Shown here: in pieces, positions 39,883-49,300 of the stretch
Position numbering within the stretch: position 1 is the first letter of the stretch
How the letters are laid out: each line of letters opens with the position of its first letter
Source of the DNA: Halichondria panicea
Taxonomy: Eukaryota > Porifera > Demospongiae > Suberitida > Halichondriidae
Direction: 5' to 3'
Assembly (NCBI RefSeq): GCF_963675165.1
Contig: NC_087391.1
Coordinates: 1,569,001 to 1,633,000 of the forward strand
DNA: 64,000 nucleotides
Notes under the pieces: model-generated
What the model saw: only the letters and a program-made list of their open reading frames with translations
Told to the model about the DNA's origin: nothing
Databases searched by the model: none
Translations under genes and position numbers: made by a program

Positions 39883-42567
39883 GACCATGAGAATGAAAAG
39901 CATTGAACAAAAGAGGTAAGAATGCTCCAGATACTAACCAAACAAGTTCTGTTTTACTCAGTTTCCCGCCATTACTATTAGCCTCTCCACCGGCAGAGCT
40001 ATTGACGACCTCATTGAGGACGTGGACAGTGGAGACGTACAGGAATGTGCCGGCTGAGAACAGCATGGCTATGCCAGTCAGAGGGAGGTGGACAAGGTAC
40101 ATCACCTAGAAGTAGTATGTTGGTGTGGGTAAGATGTAATTACTATTCAGAACTGGTGGCAAATCAGTAAGCATAATTATGGTAATGGTCTAAGATACAA
40201 GATAACTACCGTATAGCGGGTAAGTTTCGTGGGGTAAAAAATTCGTTCAACTCGAGAAACGGTAGTTTTCGTGATAACTACCGTATAGCGGGTAAGTTTC
40301 GTGGGGTAAAAAATTCGTTCAACTCGAGAAACGGTAGTTTTCGTGAGTAAAAATTTCGTTTAGTCTCGTGGCTGCACGGCATTCCTACGTTCAGATAAGC
40401 CACGCCTACGATAAAATTTCGTGGAAGTCAGCCTGCCCGCCCACGAAAATAACGAATAATTTACCCCACGAAAATTACCCGCTATACGGTATTTAAGAGT
40501 AGCTTGTTTAAGTAAACGAGCCACGTGATGAACAAACTTATGCTCTGTGTTCAAAACAAAATCATGGTAAAATTACAAAAAAAACAGTCTACAAGACAAT
40601 ACGTTAGTTATGTAAATGTACGCGAGAGTTGTTAGGCAAAATCAACATAATTATCGTCAACAATAAGGGCCTCTATATACACTCAGTCAAAATTAATGAG
40701 TGTGCAAACGTGACTCACGATAGTAGTTATTTATTCACTCACTTTAACGAGTCCAAAGAAAGAGACGAAGGAAGCGATAGGAGCAGCTAGAGAGAACATC
40801 AGTAAATGCTTCTTTGCCGTGTATTTATCGTGGCCCTACATACAGTACACCATCATACATAATTATATCCAGGCTGACCTCACAAACTGTATAATCACGC
40901 ACACCACACATACCTCGTGAATCAGGAATGAGGTGAAACCGAATGCAGCTGGAGCCTATAGAGGAATATCCATACGGTGGTCATGTGACTATAAGCAGTA
41001 ACGCCACACCTTGTGTAGCATGATTGCTAAGAAGATGACGAGCTCGACGTCAGCTTTTGACAGGCCAGCAGCTGCTCCTAGTGCCAGACCATCAGCTGGG
41101 AAGGTAGACATCACATGACTCATACAGTAAACTACCATTTCAATGCGAAATAAATAAGCAAGATTTTCATGAATGCATGAGAACAACACTACCGTCACAA
41201 AGGTATACATAATATTGCGTTGCATGTAAATTAGAGACTCACCTGCTGCATGTACTACAAGTCCAATGGTGGCTGTCATCTTGTGTCTGCTGTGACGAGC
41301 ATTGCCATTGGCTCCATTCTCAGCATCTGAGGAGAGGGGAACAAAACACTGAGTGAGAGAATGACCACCATGGTTGATTATTTCCTAGAATATGACCTAT
41401 TAAATTTCTGAATCACTGAAAGTATTAATTGTGTTTGGTTTTTGATATACTGCAAGGACACTAGTGGAATAGCTTCGGCTACTAATCATGCAACAACATA
41501 TAAAGTAAAATGACTGAGCTAAAGTATCAGCAATTGTAGAGGACGGTTAGAGTGGCTGTGATACCGCATAACACAGTTTCAAATTTAAACGAGGACTATG
41601 TAATTAGAAGTTTACAGAAACATAGCACTACAAGTGTACCTAGAAACAAATACCTCAATCACCAAGTGTTTCTAGACTACCATAATTAATGAATTACTGG
41701 ACATTTGCTTCAACGACAACACGGTGACCACCCCCTCCCCTCTAGCTCATGTACCTGGAATTGAATGGGCGTGTCCCCCACTGCACTGATCTATGAGTAG
41801 CATGAACACAAAGCCCAGTATTAGGGAGAACCCCATCATGAACTGCAGCTGGTCTGTCGAGTACAGCCCCTCCTCACTGCCTGGTAGAGCACCCTCCTCT
41901 GATAAGGCTTTGATTTTCCGAACATGAGCACTGTTAGGGATAAGGTTATTGATTGGTCCTTCGTCGGCCGAGCGAACTTTCAAGGAGAGGTCGGAGAGAT
42001 CGGATTCGTGGGTGTGTGAGTGGTGGTTGTGATGACTGTGGAGTGCTGTGTGTGTGTTTAGGGGAGGGGGTGAAGAGGGATAGAAGATACGGTTCGTACA
42101 AATCATGCGTGATAAATAAATATTAGGAGTCATTCACAGGAGACGAAAGTCGGAGATGACACATAATGATCATAATTATACATACCCTCTCCAAAGAGTG
42201 CCTCCATACCCTCCGGTATGATCACAATCAGAGCCGTCCCAATAAGCAGACCAGCTCCAAATGTAGTCACTTTCCTTAGTACTCCCTATATATATATATG
42301 GGACCAGGAGTGGATTATGATAACATAAACAGTACTGACACATAACATCAGGCTTAAAACAATGCTATAAACATTGGTATAAATGCAGTTTGTGTCTATA
42401 TGTATACTCACAGCTGAGAGAGACAGCCCTAGGGGTATCAATGTGTGTAGTGTGTGTCTAGGTGTACTCACAGCTGAGAGAGACAGCACTAGGGGTATCA
42501 TTCCTGAGACATAGCAGCCAAAGAACATGGAGAGAGATAACAGCACCAATCTCCAGAATCCGTCCAT
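39878..42567 (-). CDS. SLC39A9: Zinc transporter ZIP9
   Basis: Eight exons, all in phase, 339 residues: 42472-42567, 42186-42285, 41755-42045, 41243-41326, 41010-41095, 40914-40955 (42 bp), 40743-40835, 39878-40105. First membrane segment [37 protein letters not shown], a His-rich loop ([12 protein letters not shown]), [13 protein letters not shown], then the metal-site helices [16 protein letters not shown] and MLHKAPAAFGF of the ZIP family, and the conserved [20 protein letters not shown]9 moves zinc into the cytosol from the Golgi/cell surface, and in vertebrates doubles as an androgen receptor. The first exon's 3' end is duplicated in the intron (42391-42450 against 42451-42510). Confidence 0.93.
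40207..40491. mobile_element. ACCGTATA-type MITE with tandemly duplicated 5' end
   Basis: taccgtatagcgggtaagtttcgtgggg occurs at 40207 and again 72 bp later. A single 3' end (gaaaattacccgctatacggta) closes at 40491. In an SLC39A9 intron. Confidence 0.8.
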
Positions 42568-42900
42568 ATCTTACCGGTATTCAACAGATTCGCCAGTTTG
42601 GAATCATTGTTTAAGGTAGATCAGATATTGTGTATCACTCACTCTTGCTTCTGGATTTACATGCAATGATTTCAATTTTTCATGTTTTATTAGTTAATTA
42701 GAGCAGAGATAATCTCTGATGAGAACCGTTCTATTCCCTTCTACTTCAAAATCTTGCATGACACCCTGACTCAATACAGTCATATGTACATGCAGTGTGG
42801 ATATAAAAGGCAATTTTAAAAAATATGGGCGGGAAAAACAACTTGTGCTTGAAAAAAAATCAGCATTGCCAATGTGAGGAGATAAATGTTGTAAGCAAAG

Positions 42901-45900
42901 TTAAAACATTGAGTCCAGCTCTGCGGCTAGTTCATCGTGTCCAACAGATTGGCTGCGTAGTGCTTTAAGGAGTTCCTCGTGTGATATGTTACTTGATTTG
43001 AGTCGAATGCGAAGTATATCTCTGAGACGGTCCCCATCGTCAGGTCTCTTGTTCTCGATGCTCTCAAGATCTACGCAAGGGAGGCCCAGACAAAGGCCCA
43101 GGTTGAACCACTTGTCCTTGGCAGGATACAATTGCTCCAAAAAACGTAGCAGGTCTGTTTCTTTCACTGTAATTAACATGTAGATATTGATGATGCTATG
43201 GATGGCATGGGAACATTATTTTACAGATTTCGTTACATGGGTAAAAAAATCCAATTACCAGGCTGGATGTCAGGGCGCTTGGAAGCTGGTGTTACAGGAG
43301 TTGCTCCAGTGTCATCTCTATTTCTTTTCCTACAAAGGACATCTGTACATGCATACAAACATTAGATTATCAAGGTAAACATAAGAAGACCGGTACACAT
43401 ATCTAATAGTTGAGCATGCCATTACTTGTGTCCTGGCTAGTAGTAGCCTCGTAATCTCCATTGGAATCATCTGCCATTTTTTTGGAAATCGAAATGAGTT
43501 CCTTGAGATTCTTGTCACGACATTGCTCCTCATACTTCCTCACTAACGTCTCGGCAGCATATTCTTCACGTGGTGGTAATGTCACTGACAACTTCATGCT
43601 ACACTTTTTATGAGGACAACACAAATTGTTCTTTATCCCCTCTATAATGCACGTGCAACAAAATAGGTGGGCGCATTTTGAAGCTATCGGTTGTTTCCAT
43701 GCACTTTTGCAGAGAGCACAAAATACATCTTCCTTGAAGATACTCGGATTAGCCCAACGGCAGATGTATAGCAAGTCAGCCCAAACGTCTGCTTCCATCA
43801 CCCAGAACTTGGAGTTGATCATCCTGAAGACTAGATCCATTGGAAGACTCCATTTTGAATGCAGGGTCTTGAGGAGGGCAATTAGTTCACTTAGTGTGAT
43901 TGACAGGAACATTTGAGCATTTTGAAGTTTGAGTATGCGAAGCTGAGATCTTTTTAGTCGCTTTTGTTCAGTGCCACAATCACATGTACATGTAACATGT
44001 CCATCCTCCTGAGACAAAGAAGAAGACAAGTATATTGAATTGGCTAAAGCCTCACTGTTGCTATGATTATATAGATAGAGCAGAGAGGGATTAGAAACGG
44101 AAGTACCCTCGAAGTACCATCCACGGTTTTAATCGAGGCTTAACACGAGGGCTAACATGAATAATTCATGAGAATTGTTTTGCTGTCTGTAAGAAGTCCA
44201 CAAGCAGTTTTGCTGCTAAACATCATTCGTTTCATACAGCTCTGTCTCTAGCTAGCTATAATAGCTCTGTGTAATGACTTTCAATACTTTGTCAGGATAT
44301 TTTCGTGATAAATTCAGTATTATAGGACATTTACGGGAACAAATATCCAATAATGTTGCGCATGTGCAAGCAGTCAGTAGCAGGCCTTCTCTTCAGGGGA
44401 GGCCAGTGAAGGAGGCTAAGGTACTATATAGGAACACAAGCATGAAAAAGCGCTCTGTGTACCTCTAGCTATTTCACGACAATCAAGCATTCTCGTTCTG
44501 TAATCAAATATTTGTATACAGTACATAGTACAACATACCCAGTCCATAATAGTCCGGTTCATTCTCATTTCAAAAGTACTTGATCCAAAGTGAACACGTT
44601 TTGGTATGTGTGCGAGTAGCTGGTGATTGAAAGATTCGACCCAGAACGTGTCACGACACTGCAAATAAACACAAGGCATGAATAGTAATCATAGTAATTA
44701 AATTAACATCCTTACTTGACAGTAAAACGGCGCATTTCTACAGATAAGAGTATCTTTTAGTCCTGCCTTACAAGCTTCAATGGCAGCAGGATCCTCAAGT
44801 TTTATCTTGGTAGGGCTGTCACCTAGATGCTTGAATAGTGAGCTTTTGTCACAATCCTCGTGCTCGTCCTGCAAACGCTTAGCCTTACGTTTGTCAGATA
44901 ACTCTGGAAACCAGGTTTTTCCTCTACCCTTTTTGGTACCAACTGCTATTTTCGCCATTTTCTTTGCTACATTTTTGGTGCCTGCAAATACACTGACTTG
45001 GTATTACAGAATGTACTTTGTTATCACTTACCGTTCCAGGTGTTGTACGAATTGAGATCATCAGCGACATACTTCTTCACTACAGGTTGATTGTCATGCT
45101 TTACTTCAACAACATTGAGACCTACACATACAACAAAATACATACACACAATGAATAAACAAACGGCATGGGGAATTTGATACCTTTTTCCAAAGTGCGA
45201 GGAAAAACTATTTTGGTACATGCAACTTTTCGAGTCGGTGCACAATTATGTTCGGTGTTGGACCCATTTGAGCAGCCAACAATTCTTTTTGCACTAATAA
45301 CGGTTAGATAACAAGTGTTACATAACAGACATACCTTCTTGACAGACAAGGAACGGTGATATTATACTCATTGGCTGTAGAGTCGTGGGGAGCATCTGTT
45401 ATTACCCATTGTTGATAAAGTACACTTGTTTCAAATACGATAATGGCCAGAAAAACATTTTCCTTGTTATCAAGTGTTGCGTTCACTTCCTCAATTGCAT
45501 TCAGCATGGATGACTTGGCACACGCGTCCACGTGTCCTCCTTTGTTACATACCATAATCACACAATGTTAATTATTAAGTGTAATAAAAAGTCCAAACAA
45601 ACGCACGTGAAGTAATGTATCGAGCACCGACTTTTCCCAAGCCGGCGGCATTGCCACTGAAGTGAATGCACTGACTTGGTAGAATTCCAGCACACGTGAA
45701 AGCATGAACGATCCTGGAACAAAGAGTCAAAAGTAAATAAAATAATGAACAAACTCACTTCTGGTTGACAATGTATCGTCCACCCTGTGTTCGTGAGCTA
45801 GCCCACCACTGACGCCTTCCGCTAGTGTCACACAAAAATTCAATGCGGAGGACATGCCCCTTCTGCAAAAAATTAATTACGGACAGTCATGTGAATTATG

Positions 45901-46225
45901 AGCAACGTACCTGCGAATATAAACTGGTGCAGAGACGGTGAAAAGTAGTTTGCTCACAAATGAACGGGAACTGGTCGTCACTGGCGTTGGCATTGCCAGT
46001 GAACATTCCTGAACAATAAATCATACAAACTTTTTCCCACGAGCTGACACAAACCTGACTTCTCCAACATTTGTTATACAGTGCAGTATCTATATTAGTT
46101 GGGCATGACTTTATGTTCAGAGTCGGGGCAAAATCTGTCAGGAAGGCTAAGCTGCCAGTTCTACAATATGTCCTAGATCCTGATCCAATCGATGTGTCTA
46201 CCACGTGGGCTAGATTTGCACACAT
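42901..46225 (-). CDS. Transposase-derived protein fused to RING finger and death domain
   Basis: Ten exons join in phase to 721 codons: 45911-46225, 45759-45862, 45607-45713, 45335-45539, 45184-45293, 45032-45121, 44716-44981, 44539-44658, 43426-44008, 42901-43166. The N-terminal two thirds resemble the large invertebrate transposase-like family with blocks GNAAGLGKVG, VVEVKHDNQPVVKKY, TWNGTKNVAKKM and DTFWVESFNHQLL followed by PKRVHFGSSTFEMRM. I know this family only by its pattern. Next is a helical linker and a C3HC4-like RING (FCALC...CAHLFCCTC...CPHKKC), then a C-terminal death domain (DLLRFLEQLYPAKDKWFNLG...LGLPCVDLESI...LAAELDSMF). RING suggests ubiquitin ligase activity and the death domain homotypic signalling. 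The start Met at 46225 is the first after the PNPT1-side spacer. An alternative is two genes, but the RING-death junction (A/gtaatg to TG) is in phase. Confidence 0.65.
44214..44420. repeat. Dispersed repeat in intron of the RING/death gene
   Basis: acagctctgtctctagctagct ... caggacat ... gcgcatgtgcaagcagtc ... ggaggccagtgaaggaggcta matches 20578-20768 and, inverted, 1180-1320. Confidence 0.65.
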
Positions 46226-46320: not shown

Positions 46321-49300
46321 ATGTCAATGGCTTTATGCAGTCGTAAGAACTTCTACCCTTCTTTTTGTTGGTCGTGCAGGCAGCTATGGAGGAGTAAGGC
46401 TGGATTGAGGTTGCTAAGAAACATAGGAGGTGAATTATCTGACAACCCACTAGCTCATTTCGTTCGTTTTCTATCTCCGAACACAAGTACTCTACCAGTT
46501 CGATATGTCCACACCTCATCCCAGTCATGCAGGGACAGTTCTGTATCCACCGAAGTAGGAGGAAGGTGTGTACAGATACGAATAGAATTCACAAAATACT
46601 AGTGGTCGCTTACTAAATAGCCATTTCGTTATTTTTCTTTCAGCTCCATAAATTTCTCCACTGGGAAGTTTGCCAAACTGGCCTCAGGCTCTGCTCTAGT
46701 GGAGGTATGCATGAGCCTGTATTGTTTTTAGTGGTTATGTGCCTATAATTATGTGTTAGTGTAAGGTTGGAGTAATTCAATGAATGTGTCCTATTCTGTT
46801 CTGCTCAGAGTGGGTCCACCAGTGTCCTAGTAACGGCTGTCAGTGAGTACAAAGCAGATTCGTCAGCCAGTTGGCTACCATTGCAGGTAGTATTTGTTTT
46901 AATTCGTCATAGTCTATGAAATAATTGATTGGTTAAAGACTTAGTTCACACATCTTGATAGAATAACCATAATGGTGGAAAATTTCGTTATTTCGTATTG
47001 TAGAGCATCATACTAAAGTCATAACTACGAAATTATTCCGTTCAACATCACTATCCTGGTATTTAAAATACTAAATGGGTAGTTTATACTAAAATTTGAA
47101 CCAACGAAAATTACCCGCTATACAGTAGCTACATGCAATAATGACAGCATGTACATGTACATGTATGTGCATGATAGAAAGTACCATATATCTTCATTAT
47201 CCATGCTCCACTGACTGTTGCTAGGTTGACTATCGAGAGCGTGGTTCTGCTACTAACAAGATTCCTCAGACCTTCTTCAGACGAGAGCTGAGGCCCTCCA
47301 CTAAAGAATACCTCGCCTGTCGCTTCATTGGTCAGTTAAAAAAAGTATTAACACTTATATTTATTTGAGGTTTCTTTAGATCGCTCCATTCGACCATTAT
47401 TTCCGAATGGCTACTACTACAATACACAGGTTGGAATGCTCGTATCCATCCATACTGTGTAGTGTCAGCTGTACTGTGCTCCTAGATCATCTGTAATATG
47501 CTGGCAGTGGACGGTAACGAAGACCACGAGATCCTGGCTGTCAACGGAGCAGCTGCTGCTCTCATGCTTTCGGACATTCCCTGGAATGGGCCCATCGGTG
47601 AGTCAATAGCCAGCTGCTGTAGTCGTAGTCAGAGGGAGGGTTTGGTTGCTATAAGTGATGTCTTACTTAAGTGACATCTTTGCAAGGAGCGATGCACTAA
47701 CTGTTCTTTCACTTTTCAGGTGTGGTACGAGTTTGTTTAATGGATGGCAAGTTCTGCATTAACCCCTCAACTAGAAAAGTAAGGTTGTGATTCTACTTGA
47801 ACTACGTTGTACTGTTACATAGTGTGCTTGTCAACCTCTGTAGCAAAGCGCTTGCCAACTGAACTTGATTGTGGCCTGTACGAAAGACAGAATAGGTGAG
47901 TGGTGTTTGCACTGTTGTACCCATAGTAACTGATGTGGACTAAGAGCTTACATATGTATGTATTAAGCACCCGTACTTTGTACATGTATTGCTTACTTAC
48001 ACGGTCCCCCTCCCCTACTCAGTCATGGTGGAGGGCAGCGGAGAGGAGGTACCAGAGGACATGATCTGTGAGGCTGTTCACTTTGCACTCAGTGAGGTGA
48101 GAGCTTATAAACTACTGCAGACTACAGGACGCAGTTATGATTATTGTAGAGATGTCTATTTTGTAGTCAGAAAGTCACAGGAAACTTGTATGGTTCATAT
48201 ACATGTAATGATCGACTGCATTGACGTTCCAGGCCCAACCTCTGCTAGAGTCACTCTCTGAACTGGCCCAGCATCGTAGAGTACCAACCAGAGAGTCTCA
48301 TCTTTTCCTGCCCTCTCAGCATGTGCTTGATACCGTGAGAAGGTCAGAACTTATCCAATATCTGTTTTCATTGCAAGGGAGTGTATGTAGAGCTCTATGA
48401 AAAGTGTTGAGTACCAGATAGAGACCTGATATTGCCAGATAATGGTAATCACACTTTTGTCCATGCACCTTAAGCTTGTGCCGAGAGCAGCTAATGACCA
48501 TCCTGTGTACAACCACTCACTCTAAGATGAGCAGAGATGAGCAGCTGTTCTCGTTATTGGATGCCACCAAGAAAATGTTGGCAACAGATGAGTTGGTGGA
48601 TGTGAGCAGAGTGGGAGATGCGTTCTGGGGCAATGTACATCATTGTATGCAGGAGCTGGTTCTGGAGAGAGGGATAAGGTACAACATTGAGATAGAAGTA
48701 CCTGAGTGTATGCACTACTTACCCTCCTTATATCCCGTTGCTATGCTGTTGCTATGTGCAATATGCAGCATAATGCACTGTATCTCATATTCTGCACTGA
48801 CCGCAAAGCCTTGAGGGATTAAATGATCATGATATACATGGCAAGAGCCCATAAAGGAGAGAGAGTGTGTAACTTACGTGTCTGCTACAGTACGGGCAGA
48901 TTCTAAAACCGCTACTATAAATAGAACTGTGGTCACGTGCGATTACATTCCATACACATCACTGTCACATGCAGCAGTGAGCGATTTCAAGAATTGTACT
49001 ACTTATAGTAGCGGTTTTTGATTCTGCCCGGTCTGTAGTGGGCGGGAGTTACACGCTCTTGACATATATTTAAAATAAATGCTGCATAGCAAAGGCTTCC
49101 AGTATTGTCCAGTTCTTTACTGTCCGCTTCAGCTTAGGACACAGTCGTATTCGTACTCGTTGAAGGCATCGTCGGAGTTGGCCGTTAATTGGGGAGTGGC
49201 TGTTTTGCAGGGGAGGAACTGTTTGCAGGCTGCAGCAGAGTTTGGGGTGGGGCTGCTTGAGTTGCAACTTGCATTGCAGCTTTGGGGTGGGATGTTTTGC

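Follow-up and report, generated by a model that had tools for sequence, protein, structure and literature searches.

Results

An open frame joins transposase-derived exons to RING and death-domain exons

A single open frame that links transposase-derived and host exons at GT...AG borders is present on the minus strand of the window, the 64 000-nucleotide stretch of Halichondria panicea DNA analysed here (NC_087391.1, positions 1,569,001–1,633,000; positions are those of the window unless a contig is named). The host exons encode a RING finger and a candidate death domain. Judged from its residues and exons, the transposase is dead. We lean, narrowly, towards a real fusion: the RING-death protein would then carry an N-terminal extension, made of the transposase exons and constrained only to keep an open frame. 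We give this reading somewhat less than an even chance, and lean to it because the frame is open while its residues look free, because the RING exon (exon 9) appears to be internal and because no native upstream exon is visible.

The chain consists of 11 joined segments (46225–42901) whose GT...AG borders and phases close, and reads 749 codons without an internal stop before the terminal stop codon. The first-pass annotation of this DNA was right to call the chain open and phase-compatible; its count of ten exons and 721 residues is replaced by 11 segments and 749 codons. The transposase frame has its ancestral first exon piece at 46055–46070, which starts at ATG 46070 and whose donor is joined to 46008; the ATG and the GT border are homologous in relatives. 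When the 46-nt ancestral intron (46054–46009) is spliced out, the variant from ATG 46070 is still open, so that the chain closes both ways, with 682 residues without this intron and 749 with it retained; the alternative ATG 46225 is in frame in the latter case. The remaining transposase-derived exons lie at 46008–45911, 45862–45759, 45713–45607, 45539–45335 (including a retained former intron, ∼ 45462–45409), 45293–45184, 45121–45032, 44981–44716 (with a 20-nt scar where an exon was deleted, ∼ 44888–44869) and 44658–44539 (exon 8). The structure as first drawn needs correction at these points: its exon 1 ran unspliced across the 46-nt ancestral intron, its exon 4 spanned the former intron, and its exon 7 carries the scar. 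Exon 9 (43426–44008, acceptor phase 0) holds an EQKRLKR segment, the SKFWVMEADVWADLL block and the RING (∼ 43720–43613), and its first Met in frame is at 43912. Exon 10 (43259–43342) encodes a linker, and exon 11 (42901–43166) the death domain (∼ 43152–42952) and the stop codon. All these exons are on the minus strand.

The housekeeping neighbour that had been claimed is there. The transposon-derived and RING-death exons lie head to head with the 5′ part of a PNPT1-like gene (mitochondrial polyribonucleotide nucleotidyltransferase; 46321–47674, plus strand), one exon piece of which matches PNPT1 chains with E 2.5e-12. Its frame is open, and its start at Met 46321 is a guess. About 250 bp of single-copy sequence lie at the PNPT1-facing side. 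The downstream neighbour (41500–42570, minus strand) gave no Pfam or PDB match for the fragments tried; it presumably resembles the ZIP-family metal transporters.

Mutator-like ancestry and decay of exons 1–8

By homology, exons 1–8 descend from a Mutator-like transposon (PF20700) present in many copies. In the genome to which the window belongs (131 Mb, 39 contigs), these exons have at least 135 exon-level matches (95 of 237 candidates scored), from which a hand count gives at least ∼ 47 loci of the transposase family. Between 46071 and 44488, DNA similarity to the relatives takes in introns as well as exons. One near-intact relative, L017, matches the PF20700 Mutator profile (41.7 bits, cut-off 26.5, E 9.5e-11), whereas the window chain matches neither PF20700 nor any other transposase Pfam entry, even at E ≤ 10; we assign the window copy to this family because of its DNA and exon-border homology to the relatives. 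It shares with L017 the exon borders, phases, intron similarity and the WVITDA.HDS and VESFNH blocks. The transposase-like N-terminal region of the first-pass annotation is thus upheld as regards descent from a transposon, but not as a domain that Pfam recognizes in the chain itself.

The other differences from L017 are those of a decaying copy. The second catalytic-type Asp is lost (YDTWHG to YNTWNG; D307N, H310N), as is the CxxC (CGKCGK to CDTSGR). A 101-nt core exon has been deleted, leaving a 20-nt intron scar in frame; a former intron that has lost both splice sites is now read through (54 nt, in frame); and the ancestral acceptor of exon 4 is gone, with a replacement 12 nt on. The 3′ (C-terminal) transposase exons are absent, cut off by nested short repeats. 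The D of WVITDA and the E of VESFNH are both retained, and we take D, D and E to be the acidic catalytic triad of this transposase; of the DDE residues that were to be checked, the second D is therefore N. An active transposase is ruled out by the missing catalytic-type Asp, exon and C-terminus. With the Asp and the CxxC cysteines lost, core and C-terminal exons gone and its branch unconstrained (see below), the copy is also not a domesticated transposase of the kind proposed, preserved either as an enzyme or for its sequence.

The first-pass annotation had named many multi-copy loci with terminal inverted repeats as speaking against its reading. The loci are found (∼ 47); terminal inverted repeats were not recognized around L017, L020, L022 or the window copy. 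Within the family, C1:0.09–1.0 Mb holds many copies of the transposon, and the near-identical copies L017–L020 on C1 are followed by a minisatellite in steps of ∼ 40 bp. A sister copy on C14 (L022) contains a 209-nt inverted repeat (1927–2434 of that locus) whose arms are 99% complementary and 90 nt apart.

The RING and the death domain

The C3HC4-like RING of the first-pass annotation is confirmed. Exon 9 matches solved RING ligases (RNF125, E 1.5e-5) and its zinc ligands are readable by eye, the final pair being spaced C-x4-C; the zf-C3HC4 score of 17.6 bits lies below the curated cut-off of 21. An AlphaFold model of exon 9 (pLDDT 45) was set aside.

For the terminal death domain the evidence is divided. 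The PF00531 score, 16.7 bits and 13.8 bits in the whole chain, does not reach the cut-off of 22.6, but a structural model has six helices (pLDDT 66.5, low confidence), and when it was compared with 38 chains by VIA-align the top five were all members of the death superfamily (two chains of the Fas/FADD complex, Z 7.4 and 6.9; p75NTR, 6.0; CARDs, 5.0 and 4.5), the rest scoring ≤ 2.2. Middling Z values are common among helical bundles. Foldseek alone was weak for this model (E 7.9 and 9.9). The death-domain alignment, used as a profile against the PDB, returned engineered repeats as its best rows, with no single stretch passing, and the death domain of the window had no phmmer match. Within the genome the domain resembles C14:4989945, C4:3641043 and C2:6116645, all of which overlap Death matches above the cut-off. 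The model, the VIA-align scores and this similarity support a six-helix death fold in exon 11, even with PF00531 below its threshold. Death-domain matches (E ≤ 0.001) number at least 148 in the genome, with 150 of 503 candidates scored, and many of them cluster on C12, C14 and C1.

Homology places exons 9–11 in a separate RING-death family. Among the matches listed, its members are 11 genes in tandem on C6 (C6:2476000–2554000; L011–L013, L015, L016, L027, L028 and L031–L034) and one on C9, which share with the window the SKFWVMEADVWADLL block, the RING and the death domain at 38–50% protein identity. The C6 copies differ from the window in having their own coil exon and leucine-rich upstream frames and no transposase match listed; indeed, no transposase match was found at the C6 or C9 loci among those listed (95 of 237 candidates scored). 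The idea that the same fusion recurs at several loci was dropped, as transposase and RING coincide only at the window among the matches listed. In the C6 copies the RING exon is preceded by a short coil exon that splices to it in phase and has a phase-0 acceptor of its own. Window exon 9 aligns with coil and RING exon in one piece and starts in phase 0, and for these reasons we regard it as internal by homology. Between the short repeats and exon 9 just 62 bp are free of repeats, so that upstream of this internal exon we see no native coding exon.

Differences between exon 9 and the C9 copy (0.39, 0.30 and 0.51 at codon positions 1, 2 and 3) indicate that its codons have been constrained over this long distance. 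One scan of prokaryote contigs gave no relatives of exon 9. Upstream frames in the C6 array contain a minisatellite, translated as leucine repeats of the LKALDAL type; the units L012, L015 and L016 have or adjoin further frames, MOB1-like in L015 and L016.

An open frame with apparently free residues

Substitutions, gaps and splice sites were counted in an alignment with L004, L005, L022, L023, L017 and L026 (L007, L018–L021 and L024 were left out), and changes on the window branch were polarized with four sisters and L017. This branch has 22/228, 23/239 and 7/165 changes at codon positions 1, 2 and 3, compared with 5, 0 and 11 on the sister stem and 21, 11 and 71 on the internal branch. Its N/S ratio of 0.71 (test against neutrality, P 0.067) is like those of the broken sisters L004 (0.64) and L005 (0.73); L022 and L023 have 0.25 and 0.40, both from few changes, and L017 and L026 0.20 and 0.22. 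Purifying selection on the transposase part was not detected in these counts. No amino-acid constraint is visible on the window transposase since its split from the sister copies, and its residues look free. The codon-position pattern means that the open frame is not explained by selection on a working transposase, and selection for transposition is ruled out as what kept it. Exons have changed less than introns (76/702 versus 55/224), which misfits residue neutrality unless the intron alignment is poor; the difference may be an alignment effect.

Openness itself is less easily had by chance. With 52 of 632 exon sites changed on the window branch, or 101 of 858 when polarized by majority, the probability under neutrality that no stop arises is 0.030–0.009; a separate estimate gave 0.021. 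Frameshifting gaps occur in the four sister copies and the window frame closes; L022 and L023 are likewise free of in-frame stops in the aligned codons. When exon lengths are taken from splice site to splice site as used in the window chain, they depart from those of L017 by −36, 0, +3, +21, 0, −9, −81 and 0, so that all five differences are multiples of 3, largely because closure of the chain demands this of chosen splice sites. Counted by alignment columns, just two of the four unequal pieces of the window copy are multiples of 3; automatic gap counting yielded 3/8 for the window, 6/17 for L004, 4/11 for L005, 7/14 for L022 and 5/21 for L023. Kept splice sites were dropped as a mark of the window copy: it has lost 3 of 19 ancestral sites (the exon-4 acceptor and both sites of one intron), compared with 6 in L004, 5 in L005, 7 in L023 and only 1 in L022.

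Fusion or neighbours

Transposon similarity ends at 44488, exactly where an outer short repeat starts (44071–44487; copies without the inner repeat at C9:1310781–1311076 and C2:1330765–1331065). Nested in it is an inner short repeat (44235–44418) that is found in at least 37 other places with 85–95% identity (40 of 956 candidates scored). A remnant of the ancestral next exon persists at the broken end (44483–44497, minus strand) and offers a rival 3′ end, reading NENA and then a stop, where the relatives L017–L021 read NENV onward. Its acceptor, after a 41-nt intron (44538–44498), is closer to exon 8 than that at 44008, is the ancestral site and gives an intron of the usual size for this gene. 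Pyrimidines make up 18/20 positions at the 44008 acceptor versus 10/20, a weak tract, at the rival, which was read one base off.

In a real fusion, the Mutator-like copy, sitting between the start of the PNPT1-like gene and the RING-death exons, would provide the RING-death gene with its 5′ coding exons, and exon 8 would be joined in phase 0, over the nested repeats, to the acceptor of the RING exon (44008). No enzyme role would be left to the transposase part, which would serve as an N-terminal extension only; a stop or frameshift in it would silence the RING-death part, so that its sole constraint would be to stay open and in frame. Splicing at 44008 has in its favour that the acceptor is rich in pyrimidines and is in phase 0, the phase of the upstream-exon junction in the C6 paralogs. 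The same exons could equally well, or nearly so, belong to two unrelated neighbours, a dead Mutator-like copy whose frame is open by mere luck and a RING-death gene with a non-coding leader and its start at Met 43912, the in-phase junction being a one-in-three coincidence; this, too, we put a little below even. Such an arrangement accounts for the unconstrained branch, the changed Asp, His and CxxC, the deleted exon and the C-terminus cut off by a short repeat. It fits the transposase-free RING-death genes on C6 and C9 among the matches listed, column-based gap and splice-site counts that do not single out the window, and the closer, ancestral acceptor that would end the protein at NENA. The chain was, moreover, picked for its openness among ∼ 47 loci (hand count), and some C6 copies have a Met (MAFLPFSMNEL) roughly in line with Met 43912. 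Several other C6 copies, however, lack this Met and have an in-phase upstream exon, and, for a transcript that begins on the side facing PNPT1, the transposase ATGs upstream would probably hinder initiation at Met 43912. The low probability of a stop-free frame also sits poorly with luck.

The retained ancestral acceptor, the usual intron size and the open frame would also suit a short transposase-derived protein that ends at NENA and is kept for itself, for example as a decoy, with splicing to the RING-death exons rare at most. Amino-acid constraint would be expected of such a protein, but none is seen on the branch and the cysteines of the CxxC are changed; we consider this improbable.

Discussion

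The fusion that we narrowly favour would retain one part of the union first proposed, the transposase exons standing in frame with the RING and death modules, but not a transposase kept for enzyme or sequence. That the whole core was captured as the N-terminus, as a passenger with free residues and a frame the host must keep readable, is a more doubtful step, which we hold tentatively. A shared transcript, its translation and every functional step are what we infer for such a protein: its RING would recruit an E2 enzyme and its death domain would bind partner death domains. The role in innate signalling that was first suggested is read from the names of these domains. If the fusion is real, it would be a snapshot of a transposase-host fusion in which the enzyme is already dead while the frame leading into a ubiquitin-ligase and death-fold module is still open, and looking for the same trace, a kept frame with unconstrained residues, could help to find further early captures. 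If it is not, the locus is a caution that a dead transposon and its neighbour can make an open multi-exon chain.

Capture of transposase domains by host genes is a known kind of fusion. A RING-death partner was not found among transposase-host fusions in the literature searched. In the sponge Amphimedon an expansion of TRADD-N proteins is described, many of which carry domains of the death superfamily, as is RING together with SPRY-like domains; the portion of that account drawn on here does not name a RING-death-transposase chain (PMC8195603). In Caenorhabditis, F-box genes have captured the HTH of a Tc1/Mariner transposase, with function shown and, according to a section heading of the report, purifying selection (PMC12062965). 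The putative fusion gene in the window resembles these in joining a transposase-derived segment to a ubiquitin-ligase component, and differs in that the segment is a whole dead Mutator-like core, on which no amino-acid constraint is seen, and not a Tc1/Mariner HTH, and its partner a RING-death module.
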